Shown here in pieces: positions 3,922 through 29,965 of a DNA stretch of 61,508 bases (positions are counted from its first letter, which is position 1; every line of letters begins with the position of its first letter). A program made the position numbers and the translations under genes. Source of the DNA: Candidatus Saccharimonadota bacterium (GTDB lineage Bacteria; Patescibacteriota; Saccharimonadia; Saccharimonadales; Saccharimonadaceae). The stretch spans positions 1 through 61,508 of the forward strand of contig WRLC01000001.1 of assembly GCA_009777795.1 (NCBI GenBank). The letters run 5' to 3'. Below the pieces are notes generated by a model. That model saw only the letters and a program-made list of their open reading frames with translations, searched no databases and was not told the origin of the DNA.

Positions 3922-4935
3922 TTAAAGCAGGAGAAAGTCGTCTTTGCGGATGAGGATAAATCGGTTGTTTGTGAGTTGGAACTTTTTTTGCGGCTTGAAT
4001 GTGCGGATGGCATGGAGGAGGCGCTTTCGTTCGGGCATGGTTGACTTGACGCCTTGCGATTTTAACCAAAAATACAATAATTCTAGTAAAATGTCAGAAT
4101 CTAAAACTTTGTAGAGCGACTTTTGCATAGCTAGCCCCTCAGGTACAGCGTCGTCCGACCCCGTCGCCACGGGACGGACGCGCTTCACTCTCGGGCTGCC
4201 GCCCTCCGAGACGCCCTTCGAGGCTAGCTCTGCAAAAGTCGCTTCGATTTCGCGGGTGATTTCGAGTTGGCGGTTGCGGAGTTGCAAAAGTTTCCATTTG
4301 GTGTCGAAAGGTAGGGCAGAAGTTTTGGGGCGGAGGCGGTTGCGTAGGTATTTGGGTGATTGGTTGGTGGAGTCTTCGCGCCATTTGATGCCGAGTTCGC
4401 GGGCGAGGGCGAGAATTTCGGACTTTTCGAGCTCGAGAAGCGGGCGAACGTAGTTTTCGCGGTTCAAGACGGCAAGGCCGCGCCAACCAGTGCCGCGGAT
4501 TAAGTTAATCGCCACGCTTTCAACCAAGTCGTCGAGGTGATGGCCGGTTGCGACTTTCCCGCAAACTAGTTCTTCGGACACGACGTCGCCTCCGCCCGTC
4601 GTCACGGGGGAGTCGCGTCTCGTTCTCGGCCGTGGCCTCCGAAAGTTCTTCAGAACCAGATTTGCGAGAAAGTCGTGGCGGGCCTTACGGGCTGTTTCTT
4701 CGCTGTCGTTTGGTAGGTTGGCGGATTGGGAGATGAACTTTACTCTATGAGTAAGGGCGAAGTCTTGGACGAGTTTTTGGTCGAGGTGGCTATCGGGGCG
4801 GAGGTTGTGGTTGAAGTGGGCGATGGTGATGGGGGCGCGGCTTTTGGCGAAGATGTGGGCGAGGAGCATGCTGTCGACACCACCGCTTGTGGCCAGAAGA
4901 TAGTGGGTGCTGGCTGGAGGATTATTTCTTGACAT
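3922..4935 (-). CDS. tilS: tRNA(Ile)-lysidine synthase, carrying two in-frame palindromic insertions
   Basis: TilS converts the wobble C34 of tRNA-Ile(CAU) to lysidine. The PP-loop SGGVDS is at residues 17-22, and HFNHNLR, ARHDFL and ATGHHLDDLVES follow as expected for the N-terminal ATPase domain. Two stretches do not fit the family: an Arg/Pro-rich insert between LVLKNF and GKVATG, and GVSEGGSPRVKRVRPVATG... after ELASK. Both coincide with palindromic repeats at 4550-4675 and 4116-4242, and both keep the frame. The start overlaps the end of the upstream sugar transferase by 14 nt, so the two are translationally coupled. It meets the 3' end of the preceding + strand gene with no spacer. Confidence 0.92.
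   Translation of the reverse strand: MSRNNPPASTHYLLATSGGVDSMLLAHIFAKSRAPITIAHFNHNLRPDSHLDQKLVQDFALTHRVKFISQSANLPNDSEETARKARHDFLANLVLKNFRRPRPRTRRDSPVTTGGGDVVSEELVCGKVATGHHLDDLVESVAINLIRGTGWRGLAVLNRENYVRPLLELEKSEILALARELGIKWREDSTNQSPKYLRNRLRPKTSALPFDTKWKLLQLRNRQLEITREIEATFAELASKGVSEGGSPRVKRVRPVATGSDDAVPEGLAMQKSLYKVLDSDILLELLYFWLKSQGVKSTMPERKRLLHAIRTFKPQKKFQLTNNRFILIRKDDFLLL
4116..4242. repeat. Palindromic element copy A, inside tilS
   Basis: 28-nt arms at 4116-4143 and 4215-4242 are inverted copies of each other (24 of 28 positions by hand). They enclose a 71-nt core at 4144-4214. The core matches the core in obgE (25846-25915) at about 57 of 70 positions, but the two copies lie in opposite orientation relative to their genes. 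On the tilS strand it encodes SEGGSPRVKRVRPVATG followed by SDDAVPEG and keeps the frame open. Core plus one arm is 99 nt, a multiple of three. Confidence 0.85.
4550..4675. repeat. Palindromic element copy B, inside tilS near the active site
   Basis: The left arm (about 4550-4577) and right arm (about 4638-4675) are imperfect inverted copies: CGACTTTCCCGCAAA is matched by the reverse complement of the right arm with a one-base bulge, and the right arm carries extra bases. The core shares CACGACGTCG, CGCGTCTCGTTCTCGG and CTCCGA with the obgE copy. It interrupts TilS between RHDFLANLVLKN and ATGHHLDD, which are normally only a few residues apart, so the insert lies beside the ATP/tRNA site yet leaves the frame open. 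Confidence 0.75.
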
Positions 4936-17442: not shown

Positions 17443-18561
17443 ATGAAAAGTTTTAGGCAAAGACGAGGCGCAGGGGTAGTGGGGGTTTTGATTGGGGTGG
17501 CGTTGGGTTTGGTGGGCTGGTTGGGGTTAGGAGTGGGGCAGGTGGCGGCGGAAGGTGGGGTAGGCGATTGTGGGGAAATTGAAATAACGGAGGTGCTGAC
17601 GAATTTTCGCAATGACCAGTCGGAGCAGTTTGTGGAGTTTTTTAACCCGACGGCGGGGATGTTGAGTTTGGAGGGGTGTGTGGTGCGGACGCGGTACGGG
17701 GGGAAGGATTTGACGGCGGAGTTTGGCGAGGTTTGGATGCGGTCGGGGGAGTATCAGGCGTATAGTTTGGAGAGTTTGGGGCTGCAGATTGCGAAATCGC
17801 CGACGATTGAGCGGGTGATTGAGATTGTGGGCGGGGATTTTGTGGCGCTGGCGGAGCTGCCGCGGGCGTCGATTGGCAAGTCGTTTGCACTGGTGGAGGG
17901 GGCGTGGGTGAACGCGACGCCGACGCCGAGCGCGGATAATTTGACGGCGCCGGAGTTTTTGGGTGGAGAGGATGGGGGTGCGGTTGGTTCGGAAGAGGGG
18001 AGTGGTGTGGCCGGCGCGGCTGGCGGCGGCTTGGCGCCAGAGGTGATGGCGCCGGTGGTGCATGATAGTTTGGGAGCGGCTGGTGGTGCGGGGGCGGCGG
18101 AGTATGCGGATTGTGGGGAAGGGCGATACCGGAATCCGGAGACGAATCGGTGTAAAAAGATAGAGACGGAGCCGGAGCTGAAGCCGTGTGCAGAGGGGTA
18201 CGAGCGGAACCCGGAGACGAATCGGTGCCGGAAAATTCGGGAAAATGTGGGGGCGGCGGCGAGTTTTGGCGTGCCGGACAGTGGCGGGGCGAGTGGCGGA
18301 ACAGGGGTGAGCGCGGTGGGCGAGGCGATGGCGAATGTGTCGGCGACGATGGGGGATGCGTTTGATAGGGTATTTCGTGATGCGGATGGGTATTTGCAGG
18401 GGTGGAAGGTGGTTTTGGCGGTGGTGTTAGTGGTTTTGGCGGCGGGAATTGGGGTGTGTTATGTGTTTCGGGAGAGGTTGATGGGGGTGCCGTTTTTTGC
18501 CGAGGTAATGGGGAGGACAAGGGATTTGGTAAAATGCTTGCGTTTTTGGGAAAAACGGTGA
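17443..18561 (+). CDS. Secreted, membrane-anchored lamin-tail-domain protein
   Basis: 372 aa. A signal peptide (VVGVLIGVALGLVGWLGLGVGQVAA) is followed by a lamin-tail domain (IEITEVLTNFRNDQSEQFVEFFNP, LEGCVVRTRYGG, YSLESLGLQI), a Gly/Ala-rich linker, and two tandem Cys motifs, CGEGRYRNPETNRCKKI and CAEGYERNPETNRCRKI. A C-terminal membrane helix (VVLAVVLVVLAAGIGVCYVF) and basic tail complete it. Such proteins sit on the outer face of the membrane and may bind DNA or cell-wall material; the function is unproven. A weak -10 (TAGGCT, 17431-17436) lies 6 nt before the start. Confidence 0.75.
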   Translation: MKSFRQRRGAGVVGVLIGVALGLVGWLGLGVGQVAAEGGVGDCGEIEITEVLTNFRNDQSEQFVEFFNPTAGMLSLEGCVVRTRYGGKDLTAEFGEVWMRSGEYQAYSLESLGLQIAKSPTIERVIEIVGGDFVALAELPRASIGKSFALVEGAWVNATPTPSADNLTAPEFLGGEDGGAVGSEEGSGVAGAAGGGLAPEVMAPVVHDSLGAAGGAGAAEYADCGEGRYRNPETNRCKKIETEPELKPCAEGYERNPETNRCRKIRENVGAAASFGVPDSGGASGGTGVSAVGEAMANVSATMGDAFDRVFRDADGYLQGWKVVLAVVLVVLAAGIGVCYVFRERLMGVPFFAEVMGRTRDLVKCLRFWEKR

Positions 18562-18567
18562 AAAGTA

Positions 18568-18704
18568 TTGACTTTTTAACATTAGTGTGATATAATGGGA
18601 GTGTGAAGAGGTTTCGCAACTACCCAGTGAGGTTAGTAATCGCGGAATCCCTCCGCGAACCTTAACTTGTGAGTTAGCGACCTCAATAAAAGGAGGTAAA
18701 TACC
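18568..18704 (+). promoter_or_regulatory. Strong promoter and structured leader of the 18705 gene
   Basis: TTGACT (18568-18573) and TATAAT (18591-18596), spacer 17 nt, with TGATATAATGGGAGTGTGA continuing into the leader. The same bases recur almost exactly in front of the 19798 gene. The ~100-nt leader contains a CGCGGA...TCCGCG hairpin enclosed by GAGGTTAG...GACCTC pairing, then AGGAGGT at 18691-18697. Confidence 0.8.
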
Positions 18705-20286: not shown

Positions 20287-20446
20287 ATTAAAGACCTCCT
20301 TTCTGATGTCGGGTCAAGCACCCGCGAGCTGTGGTCGCGCGATTGCTTCACAATACTAATGTCCGGAGTGAACCGGATTAGCTTGGAAGCTTTCGATCCG
20401 GATCGACTCACACTCCCATTATAGCACACTTATGTTTAAAAGTCAA
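20287..20446 (-). promoter_or_regulatory. Promoter and structured leader of the 19798 gene
   Basis: On the - strand TTGACT (20441-20446) and TATAAT (20418-20423), spacer 17 nt. From the -35 through GGGAGTGTGA it differs from the 18705 promoter at only a few bases. Leader hairpins include CTAATCCGG-TTCACT-CCGGACATTAG and the GATCCGGATCG palindrome. Confidence 0.75.
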
Positions 20447-20519
20447 TAGTTTTGAAAGTTTTTATGCTAAAAAGTCAATAAACTTTGTGTGGCTGGAAAC
20501 TATGGTATAATGGGTATAA

Positions 20520-24853: not shown

Positions 24854-26233
24854 ATGTTCATTGACACAGCAAAAGTAAGTATAGCAGCGGGAAAGGGCGG
24901 CGATGGGGCGGTGAGTTTTCGCAAGGAGATTTATGTGGACAAGGGCGGGCCGGACGGAGGGAATGGTGGGCGGGGCGGTGATGTGATTTTTGAGGCGTCG
25001 AAGGATGAAAATACGTTGCTTGGGTTTCGTTATAATCCAGAATTGAAGGCGGGCGATGGGGCGAACGGGGCGAAGCGGCAGCGAGCGGGGAAAAGTGGTG
25101 AGGATTTGGTGGTGAAAGTGCCGGTGGGGACGATAGTGCGGCGAGGGGAGGAAATCTTGGCGGACTTGACAAAAGACGGAGAGTGTGCTATAATTGGGGA
25201 GGGAGGCGTTGGCGGTTTCGGCAACGCTCACTTTAAATCGAGTACTAGGCAGACGCCGCGGACGGCGGAGCTGGGGCTGGCGGGAGATGCGTTTGAGGCG
25301 CAGTTGGAATTAAGATTATTGGCGGATGTGGGGCTGGTGGGCTTCCCGAACGCGGGAAAATCGTCGTTTTTGGCGGTAGTTTCGAATGCGCGGCCAGAGG
25401 TGGCGGATTATGAGTTTACGACCTTGGTGCCGAATTTGGGGGTGGCGACGGTGGATGGGCGGGATATTTTGATTGCGGATATTCCGGGGTTGATTGAGGG
25501 GGCGAGCGAGGGTAAGGGGCTGGGGACGGCGTTTTTGCGGCATGTGAAGCGGACGAAGGTGATTTTGCATTTGATTGATGCGTATAGTGAGGATGTGGTG
25601 GGGCGGTATAAGGCGATTCGGGCGGAGTTGGGTAAGTTTGATGCGGATTTGTTGGCGCGGCCAGAGGTGGTGGCGTTGACGAAAACCGAGGGGTTTGATA
25701 AGGAGTTGCTCGAGATGCAGGTGGAGGCGTTGAGGTCGACAACTGAGGCGCCGATTTTTGCGATTTCGGCGCAGGCACATTTGGGCTTGACCGAGGTTTT
25801 GCGGGAGCTCTTGGCGGTCGCACCCTCACTAACCGACCCCTCAGGCACGACGTCGTCCGACCCTGTCGCCACAGGACGGACGCGTCTCGTTCTCGGGCTG
25901 CCGCCCTCCGAATGTCCTTCAGGGTCGGTTAGTGAGGGAGCGACCTGCGAGGGGGCGGGCGCGATCAAGACTATTAGATTGCCGGAAAGCCAGAAATCGA
26001 AGGGGTTTACGGTGGAGAAGAAGGGCGGGGTGTTTGTGGTGAGGGGGGTGGAGATTGAGAAGTTTGCGATGAAGACGGATTTGGCGAATTATGATAGCGT
26101 GAATCGGTTGCGTGATATTATGAAGAAATTGGGGGTGATGGCGGCGCTTCGGCGGGCGGGGGCGGAGCCGGAGAGTGTGGTGCGGATTGCGGAAAGGGAG
26201 TTTACGCTGCAAGAGCCGCCGAGGGAGTATTGA
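24854..26233 (+). CDS. obgE: GTPase Obg/CgtA, with palindromic insertion between G and C-terminal domains
   Basis: 459 aa. The Gly-rich OBG domain (FIDTAKVSIAAGKGGDGAVS; GGPDGGNGGRGGDV) precedes the G domain with G1 GFPNAGKSSFL, G3 DIPGLIEGASEGKGLG and the switch FLRHVKRTK. After the G domain, about 40 residues from the palindromic element are inserted before the C-terminal OCT domain (FTVEKKGGVFVVRGVEIEKF; LGVMAALRRAGAEPESVV). Obg acts in 50S assembly and stress control. TATTAT at 24842-24847 is 6 nt before ATG 24854, so it is leaderless; a start at 24815 would lie upstream of the promoter. folC overlaps the stop (TGATG). Confidence 0.95.
   Translation: MFIDTAKVSIAAGKGGDGAVSFRKEIYVDKGGPDGGNGGRGGDVIFEASKDENTLLGFRYNPELKAGDGANGAKRQRAGKSGEDLVVKVPVGTIVRRGEEILADLTKDGECAIIGEGGVGGFGNAHFKSSTRQTPRTAELGLAGDAFEAQLELRLLADVGLVGFPNAGKSSFLAVVSNARPEVADYEFTTLVPNLGVATVDGRDILIADIPGLIEGASEGKGLGTAFLRHVKRTKVILHLIDAYSEDVVGRYKAIRAELGKFDADLLARPEVVALTKTEGFDKELLEMQVEALRSTTEAPIFAISAQAHLGLTEVLRELLAVAPSLTDPSGTTSSDPVATGRTRLVLGLPPSECPSGSVSEGATCEGAGAIKTIRLPESQKSKGFTVEKKGGVFVVRGVEIEKFAMKTDLANYDSVNRLRDIMKKLGVMAALRRAGAEPESVVRIAEREFTLQEPPREY
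25816..25945. repeat. Palindromic element copy C, inside obgE
   Basis: 30-nt arms at 25816-25845 and 25916-25945 match in inverted orientation at 26 of 30 positions. The 70-nt core is about 81 percent identical to the core in tilS. Here the gene reads the opposite strand of the element (SDPVATGRTRLVLGLPPSE), and the frame still stays open. The insert falls in the flexible junction before the Obg C-terminal domain. Confidence 0.85.
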
Positions 26234-27772: not shown

Positions 27773-29965
27773 GTGGTAAGGAAAAATAATGGTAGCCAAG
27801 GTGAGCGAGGTTGGGTTAGTTGGGCGAGGAGAGTGGCGGGAGCGGTGGGTGTGGTGGCGATGTTTGGGGTGTTAGTAGGGGTGGTGGCGGGTGGGATAGG
27901 GCGAGTCGAGGCGGAAGAAATCCAAATCAAGGCTGTCCATGGTACGGGCTCACTTTCGATTACGGATGGAGCGTGTGCTGCGGCGAGCGCTAGCCAGACG
28001 GCGTATGATGCGGCGAACAACACGTTAGACATTAGTGTTTTGGCGAGTAGCATTGCGAGCAACTGTCTGGGGATAGCGATTACGACCAATAACTCTCGTG
28101 GTTATAGTATGACTATTGCTGGCCCGAGTAGCGGCAACTTGGTGTTAGCTAATCAAGCTTTCGGTAGTATGGAGGGCAGCGTTGAGGCGCCAGTGGTTTT
28201 TGCCGGTCAGATGACAGGGGAGTGGGGTTTTGCTGTGCCGAGCGGACAGGTGCAGGGCGTTGAGAATGGTTTTGATGGAAGCTATACGGTGCTGGCACCG
28301 AGTAATACGACCAATACGGCTAAGTACGCGGCGGTGCCGAATAAGGCTACGCCAATCTCGCAGACGACCGCGGCTAATCTGTCAGTCGATGAGTATGACT
28401 TCTTTTTTGCGGTGGCGACGGGGGATTATGCTGCGACGGGGACTTATGCGGGGGTGATTACGATTTCGGCGTCGGGAAATGCCGCGGCGTTGCCGGGCAC
28501 GACGGGCTCTTATATGCAAAGTATTACGCTGGAAAATTGCCCGACCGAGCGGACGCGGGTGGTGGACGCGCGGGATGGGAACACCTATTGGGCGCGGAAG
28601 ATATCTGGGGTTGGAGTTGGTGGTGGCGATTTGTGCTGGATGGAGACGAATTTGGCTTATGCGGGGGGCGGGGATAACACGTATGAGGATACGATGGTGT
28701 TGACGCAGGGCCGGAGTAATAGCCCGACTATGCCGTTGTATGATATACCAACTGGTGCTAACCCGACTAGCGGCACGACCGACCCGTCGACTAGCACCAA
28801 CGGCACGGGGCAATATGGCTACTTATACAACTGGTGTGCGGCGATGGGTAATCAGCCTGCTGCTTGCCAAACCAGTGAGGCAACGCAACCGGATCAGAGT
28901 GTAAACATTTGCCCGGCGGGATGGAGGCTGCCGACGGGCGGGGTTGGTGGCGAATTCACCCTACTGAACAATGCGATTAATGGAGGGAGCACAACAAGTG
29001 CAAGTGGGCTATTAACGGGCAGTCTTTTTATGAATGCGGGCTTTTTCGATAATGGCGCGTTCTCTTTCCAAGGTGGGTATGGTGCTTATTGGTCTTCGAC
29101 AGTTATCAGTGCAAGTAATGCTTCTAGGTTGCTTTTCGGTGGTAGCAATAACCCAAATGGTACAGGTGGTAAAGGTAGTGGTAGTTCGGTGCGGTGTGTG
29201 AATGACTATGTGTCGCCGGTTGAGGCGTCGGCTGGGGTGGATATGCAGCGAATTACCCTGAATGGTACGTCTGGGAATTACTATTGTCCTGTGGCACGGA
29301 CCCGAGCGGTGGATGCGAGGGATGACAAGACCTACTGGGTCCGTCGTATCGACGGCACTAGGGCTGGCGGTGGCGATCTCTGCTGGATGGAGACGAATTT
29401 GGCGTATGTGGGTGGAGGTGATGACACGTATGGAGATGTGATCGATTCAATGACCCAAGGCCGAGCTAATACCCCAACTGTTATGCTATACGACATCCCG
29501 ACTGGTGCTAACCCTACTTTTAACCCCGACGACCCAAGTACCAGCACTACAGGGACAGGCCAGTATGGCTACCTCTACAACTGGTGTGCGGCGATGGGCG
29601 GGCAGCCTGATGCTTGCCAAATTAGTGAGGCAATCCAACCGGACCAAGGTGTGAGTATTTGTCCGGCGGGGTGGAGGTTGCCGACAGGAGAGGAAGATAC
29701 TGGGGAGTTTGCCCTGCTCAACGACGCGATTAATGGCGGCTCTGAAGATAGTCCTAGTGGTCTTCTCGCTAATAGTCTTTATATGTACGCTGGTTTCTTT
29801 GGGGGCGGTTCGTTCACTGCTCAGGGATCTTTTGGCTTCTATTGGTCTTCTACAGCCAGCTATGTTGGTAGTGCGCACAACTTCTATTTCCATGCCAGTG
29901 GTGTCGCCACTGCGGGTAATAGCACTAAGGGCGCCGGCAACTCGGTGCGGTGTGTGGCGCCGTAA
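27773..29965 (+). CDS. Secreted FISUMP surface protein with two FISUMP domains
   Basis: 730 aa. Signal peptide ARRVAGAVGVVAMFGVLVGVVA; an N-terminal domain (about residues 45-240; IAITTNNSRGYSMTIAGPSS, TGEWGFAVPSG, YAATGTYAGVITISASG) resembles the 37061 protein. Two FISUMP domains of about 220 residues follow, each with DARD(G/D)...YW, GDLCWMETNLAY, GQYGYLYNWCAAMG, ICPAGWRLPTG, YWSST and SVRCV. The domains are internal duplications and match the cut-off protein at 3-818. It is predicted to be exported and displayed; the ligand is unknown. GTG 27773 is preceded by GAGGAG. Confidence 0.85.
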   Translation: MVRKNNGSQGERGWVSWARRVAGAVGVVAMFGVLVGVVAGGIGRVEAEEIQIKAVHGTGSLSITDGACAAASASQTAYDAANNTLDISVLASSIASNCLGIAITTNNSRGYSMTIAGPSSGNLVLANQAFGSMEGSVEAPVVFAGQMTGEWGFAVPSGQVQGVENGFDGSYTVLAPSNTTNTAKYAAVPNKATPISQTTAANLSVDEYDFFFAVATGDYAATGTYAGVITISASGNAAALPGTTGSYMQSITLENCPTERTRVVDARDGNTYWARKISGVGVGGGDLCWMETNLAYAGGGDNTYEDTMVLTQGRSNSPTMPLYDIPTGANPTSGTTDPSTSTNGTGQYGYLYNWCAAMGNQPAACQTSEATQPDQSVNICPAGWRLPTGGVGGEFTLLNNAINGGSTTSASGLLTGSLFMNAGFFDNGAFSFQGGYGAYWSSTVISASNASRLLFGGSNNPNGTGGKGSGSSVRCVNDYVSPVEASAGVDMQRITLNGTSGNYYCPVARTRAVDARDDKTYWVRRIDGTRAGGGDLCWMETNLAYVGGGDDTYGDVIDSMTQGRANTPTVMLYDIPTGANPTFNPDDPSTSTTGTGQYGYLYNWCAAMGGQPDACQISEAIQPDQGVSICPAGWRLPTGEEDTGEFALLNDAINGGSEDSPSGLLANSLYMYAGFFGGGSFTAQGSFGFYWSSTASYVGSAHNFYFHASGVATAGNSTKGAGNSVRCVAP

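Follow-up and report, generated by a model that had tools for sequence, protein, structure and literature searches.

Known palindromic elements in coding sequences

Rickettsia palindromic elements (RPEs) are dispersed stem-loops of about 105-146 bp, which lie in frame in conserved protein genes with no obvious loss of function (PMC2229807, PMC6649704). Their repeats reportedly become less alike with time (Claverie and Ogata 2003, as cited in PMC6649704). Bacterial MITEs such as Correia, ERIC, and RUP include some with open frames that are fused to genes (PMC2229807). In nematomorph mitochondria, according to PMC6649704, perfect inverted repeats occur inside protein genes, their arms change in concert, and template switching is proposed for them. 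Template switching is also proposed to make and maintain perfect hairpins (PMC8794818).

The element described here resembles the RPEs as a palindrome of 100-150 bp that forms a long stem-loop and lies in frame in conserved protein-coding genes. It differs from them in its host phylum and in its arms, which are specific to each site and include one inverted copy of host DNA. The literature searched, with most subscription papers outside its coverage, holds no report of such elements in Saccharibacteria, Patescibacteria or CPR. This agrees with an earlier sequence-only reading of the same DNA, which knew of no such family described for CPR bacteria.

Copies in the window

The window is the whole stretch of DNA that was analysed, 61,508 nucleotides of a 559-kb draft genome of a Candidatus Saccharimonadota bacterium. 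The covariance model finds exactly three copies of the element in it, with E values of 1e-28 to 1e-32, and all three are given here on the plus strand. Copies A and B are located in tilS (3922-4935, minus strand, 337 aa, TIGR02432), and copy C in obg (24854-26233, plus strand, 459 aa). Each folds more strongly than all of its shuffled versions (z scores of -5.8, -3.9, and -6.3 for A, B, and C).

Copy A is a 127-nt palindrome (4116-4242) with a left arm at 4116-4136, a core at 4137-4221, and a right arm at 4222-4242. The core forms two inner hairpins and carries the tip motif CCCGTCGCCACGGG at 4160-4173 (R1 match of the covariance model at 4123-4236, 109.9 bits). The inverted repeat was placed correctly by the sequence-only reading, but its arms of 28 nt are too long, as the clean arms comprise 21 nt, of which 20 pair. 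The core is common to all three copies. The recurrences had been given as 4550-4675 and 25816-25945; the first is now extended to 4547-4675 and the second is unchanged.

Copy B consists of a left arm (4547-4572), a core (4573-4652; R1 match at 4558-4668, 112.4 bits), and a right arm (4653-4675). The minus strand of this right arm encodes the conserved TilS residues HDFLANL, and it is taken as the host-derived arm. The tilS frame is open across both inserts, so the essential gene is unbroken, as had been proposed. Copy C has a left arm at 25816-25839, a core at 25840-25921 (R1 match at 25825-25936, 124.1 bits), and a right arm at 25922-25945. It lies in the linker that leads from the GTPase to the C-terminal domain of Obg. 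The structure prediction for this segment (residues 327-376) has very low confidence, with a pLDDT of about 30, which is consistent with a disordered linker.

Two other repeats are present in the window. A 56-nt inverted repeat (18551-18606 and 20408-20463, 88% complementary) brackets a 1.8-kb segment, and both of its units contain a promoter-like TTGACT...TATAAT. A gene stretch that encodes a repeated protein domain is present in three related copies at 92-818 and 28618-29693.

Distribution and host genes

In the own genome, Blast with copy C as query finds about 14 copies, and a covariance model built from these Blast copies raises the count to at least 18. Beyond the three in the window, the element thus occupies 15 further places in the genome. 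Among 61 genomes, comprising the own genome and relatives, 13 have copies by the covariance model, all within the own family. Wider sampling of the family detects the element in 105 of 295 genomes, and sampling of the phylum adds two other families; outside the own family, the distribution of the element is patchy. The relatives of the same genus match records with the isolate codes Emb289, Th196, and Hm464, from which we take them to be termite-gut bacteria.

The majority of copies are genic and in frame, and housekeeping genes, tgt among them, are frequent hosts. In the own genome, the host genes encode TilS (two copies), Obg, DnaX, RecJ, ValS, IleS, LeuS, Der, a thioredoxin-reductase-like protein, UvrD/PcrA-like helicase (two), a Mur-ligase-like protein, a FemAB-like protein, a sortase, and a VWA protein. 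The genic copies keep the frame open, and at least one copy is intergenic. In the VWA-domain protein (contig 5), one copy is apparently nested in an older member of the family.

The inserts add about 25-35 residues and are located in loops and linkers. Copies lie inside ORFs in both orientations, and 50 of 76 are in ORFs with a length of 200 aa or above, using five of the six frames relative to the core. That genic copies keep the frame is probably due to the loss of all other insertions, to a GC-rich core with about four open frames out of six, and to target sites in loops and linkers. Stop avoidance in six frames as an adaptation was considered and rejected; the cores have 4.23 open frames each against 3.97 in shuffles, which is mainly an effect of base composition.

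Occupied and empty sites in relatives

The TilS proteins of two relatives of the same genus, G001 and G003, have neither insert, and the residues are therefore not common to all close relatives. The TilS of a third, G002, has the site-A insert in common with the own genome, and its site B holds an insert of another sequence. Compared with G003, loop A has 25 additional codons and loop B has 30; compared with G020, loop B has 27. The exact number of codons added, earlier estimated at about 33, is blurred by the variable length of the host loops. Insert sizes at TilS, ValS, RecJ, and IleS are likewise approximate, since these loops vary in length within the genus. Copy C is absent from the Obg of G001, and the RecJ insert is missing from G003. 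The UvrD inserts are missing or replaced by different loops in both of these relatives. The LeuS proteins of the own genome and G003 have copies at a common position but in different frames, and some loops are therefore hit repeatedly. No close empty site is available for the tgt of G256, whose relatives do not exceed 79% identity and whose loop varies too much.

Copies elsewhere in the genome, empty sites, and open frames together support the reading of the locus as a dispersed, mobile palindromic element of RPE-like type, which is tolerated in frame within essential genes.

Arms of the element

The arms belong to the insertion site, and one of them is host DNA. Neither feature was recognised in the sequence-only reading, which also missed the near-absence of G-T pairs described below. 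Three pairs of copies within single genomes (the own genome, G001, and G004) have cores that are 99-100% identical, whereas their arms are only 36-64% identical, with 31% expected at random. Within each copy of these pairs, the arms are 73-86% self-complementary. For 89 of 97 copies, pairing between the own arms surpasses that in 95% of arm swaps between copies.

The single close empty site that was found is the Obg loop of G314, which is compared with the occupied loop of G004 (flanks 91% and 84% identical). The loop between VPIGT and IADLT has exactly 18 codons in 23 of the 30 named relatives matched by pattern. It has 47 codons in G004 against 18 in G314. The palindrome measures 107 nt, whereas the net growth of the loop is 87 nt, on the presumption that its ancestral length in G004 was the 18 codons of G314 and the 23 named relatives. 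The remaining 20 nt or so are therefore host DNA, and the earlier guess that the insert equals the core plus one arm was a good one. They correspond to the 3' arm in G004, which encodes the conserved L-I-A that precedes D-L-T, and an inverted copy of this arm forms the 5' arm. No direct target duplication is seen in this comparison.

Of 19 Obg loci with inserts in one genus, 17 have an inverted copy of the host stretch 5' of the core, although the loop is a hot spot for several element families and the 19 loci are not all independent insertions. The inverted-copy score in these 17 loci exceeds every control window of the same gene. The empty site has no such copy; the G314 loop scores 4.5, below the control maximum of 9.0. 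At ValS, TilS site B, and another Obg locus (L232), one arm overlaps residues that are conserved in species lacking that insert. In these three cases the host arm is the 5' one, so either side can be host.

Two contrary cases were found. Copies L001-L003, at three different sites, have an arm stretch of about 17 nt in common and diverge beyond it, and arms can therefore sometimes travel with the core. In L004, the arms match poorly, and the right half resembles another group of copies.

The inserts at the Obg loop include other core families, and the copying of arms therefore seems to be general. In a large relative genus, the Obg and Tgt loops (L331-L360 and L257-L286) hold other palindromic core families with the frame kept. 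One has the core GACGGGTGAC...GGCAGGACCCGTCG, and another, short core reads GGACC.TAAGC..GGGCGAGCGCCC..GAGCGTGTCC. In the Obg loop of G317 (L340), two direct copies of the host stretch KKNLIA flank a short additional segment, which may be the remnant of a second event.

Covariation of the stems

The stems covary by almost pure Watson-Crick exchange. In the consensus fold of 76 copies, 92.4% of the paired cells are complementary against 63.8% in shuffles, and there are 724 two-sided changes. Of 2402 cells, only 35 are G-T pairs. Among the 716 double changes, 348 belong to types for which a G-T intermediate is impossible. On the modelled strand of alignment A3, A-C mismatches number 82 against 35 G-T, which is a strand asymmetry. 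The TilS A copy shared by the own genome and G002 through vertical descent has most of its inner-stem pairs exchanged, with pairing retained. The most constant part of the element is the hairpin tip CCYGTCG..ACRGG, which is a candidate recognition site.

This pattern points to templated copying at the DNA level and not to RNA structure. Selection on RNA is expected to leave more G-U pairs, and their scarcity therefore favours DNA copying. Copying of one arm from the other as DNA, as proposed for template switching (PMC8794818), yields the pattern seen in these stems.

Comparison with known systems

The RPEs are the closest kind of described element, and the present one is a variant rather than an RPE, set apart by its features. 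In RPEs the arms belong to the repeat and degrade as it ages (PMC6649704), whereas here the arms are not part of the repeat and near-perfect Watson-Crick stems are kept. MITEs are similarly short, non-autonomous, dispersed, and palindromic. In contrast to them, the element lacks conserved terminal inverted repeats, and no partner transposase was recognised in the families searched (Y1 and RVT_1). A conserved short hairpin in many copies per genome is shared with the REP/RAYT system, but here the copies are mostly intragenic and have long, variable arms, and Y1_Tnp is absent from the own genome, G001-G004, and G027. The coding palindromes of nematomorph mitochondria, as far as PMC6649704 describes them, differ in not being dispersed copies of one conserved core.

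Probable mechanism of insertion and rival explanations

The element is probably a non-autonomous mobile DNA hairpin that acquires its second arm by fold-back copying of the target, with template switching keeping the arms matched. The part that reliably moves is the core of about 60-80 nt, with its two nested hairpins and near-invariant tip. The tip may be recognised by an enzyme, and the intermediate would be a single-stranded hairpin that enters at a break or fork. Its free end would then fold back and copy the flanking host strand in inverted orientation. The sealed product would comprise the core and one new arm as the insertion, and the other arm would be pre-existing host DNA. Offsets of one nucleotide between the arms in the Obg loop may restore the frame, and later template switching between the arms would keep the stem paired during sequence drift. 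The chances are about even that this represents a new mode of DNA mobility, in which the core primes back-copying of the adjacent target and leaves an inverted target duplication with no direct repeat; several cores of the same genus appear to share it.

Y1 transposases and the reverse transcriptase RVT_1 were considered as mobilisers and rejected. A Y1_Tnp gene is absent from six element-rich genomes, including G004, which is 100% complete, and both enzymes are absent from the element-bearing G001, G004, and G027. Since near-complete element-bearing genomes such as G004 and G001 lack them, they are unlikely as general mobilisers.

A plain RPE- or MITE-like unit, in which the core and both arms move together and the arms diverge later by mutation, selection or arm-to-arm correction, is a rather unlikely alternative, though the likeliest of the rivals. 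Size, palindromy, and in-frame insertion are as in RPEs (PMC2229807), L001-L003 have arms in common, and change of the arms once inserted is documented by the orthologous TilS A copies. Unrelated arms on cores of 99-100% identity would, however, require change too fast for drift unless the cores are homogenised. In Obg, the net gain is also smaller than the palindrome by roughly one arm, and the host-derived arm can be identified there. This last comparison also bears on a preference of the core for pre-existing host palindromes, with both arms ancestral. Such a preference would account for complementary, site-specific arms, but the empty G314 loop contains no palindrome by its score, and its 18 codons fit one arm only, making this explanation very improbable.

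A functional structured RNA under transcript selection, such as a cis-regulator, a ribozyme or an intron-like element, is equally improbable, even though the three-way fold has strong and highly significant covariation. G-U pairs are nearly absent and transversional exchanges many, and copies in ORFs stay open in both orientations and five frames. Occupancy of any single site is patchy, and there is no Rfam match apart from one chance hit (E 2.2) outside the element. Some amplification methods are known to produce inverted duplications as artefacts, and the genomes used are mostly metagenome assemblies, so that chimeric fold-back reads might mimic the pattern. The occurrence of the same core in more than a third of the family genomes, with frames kept and insertions common to different species, makes an artefact of assembly or amplification the least credible explanation of all.

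Significance

Coding palindromic insertions have so far been viewed mainly as a Rickettsia oddity, and here they are common in Saccharibacteria. Many copies are present in very small genomes, within genes of translation and replication. The site-specific arms are a concrete, testable signature of hairpin insertion. The stems are also a warning, as they contain hundreds of compensatory changes without an evident RNA function, and covariation alone is no proof of a structured RNA. For the organisms themselves, the inserts account for odd extra loops in CPR housekeeping proteins.
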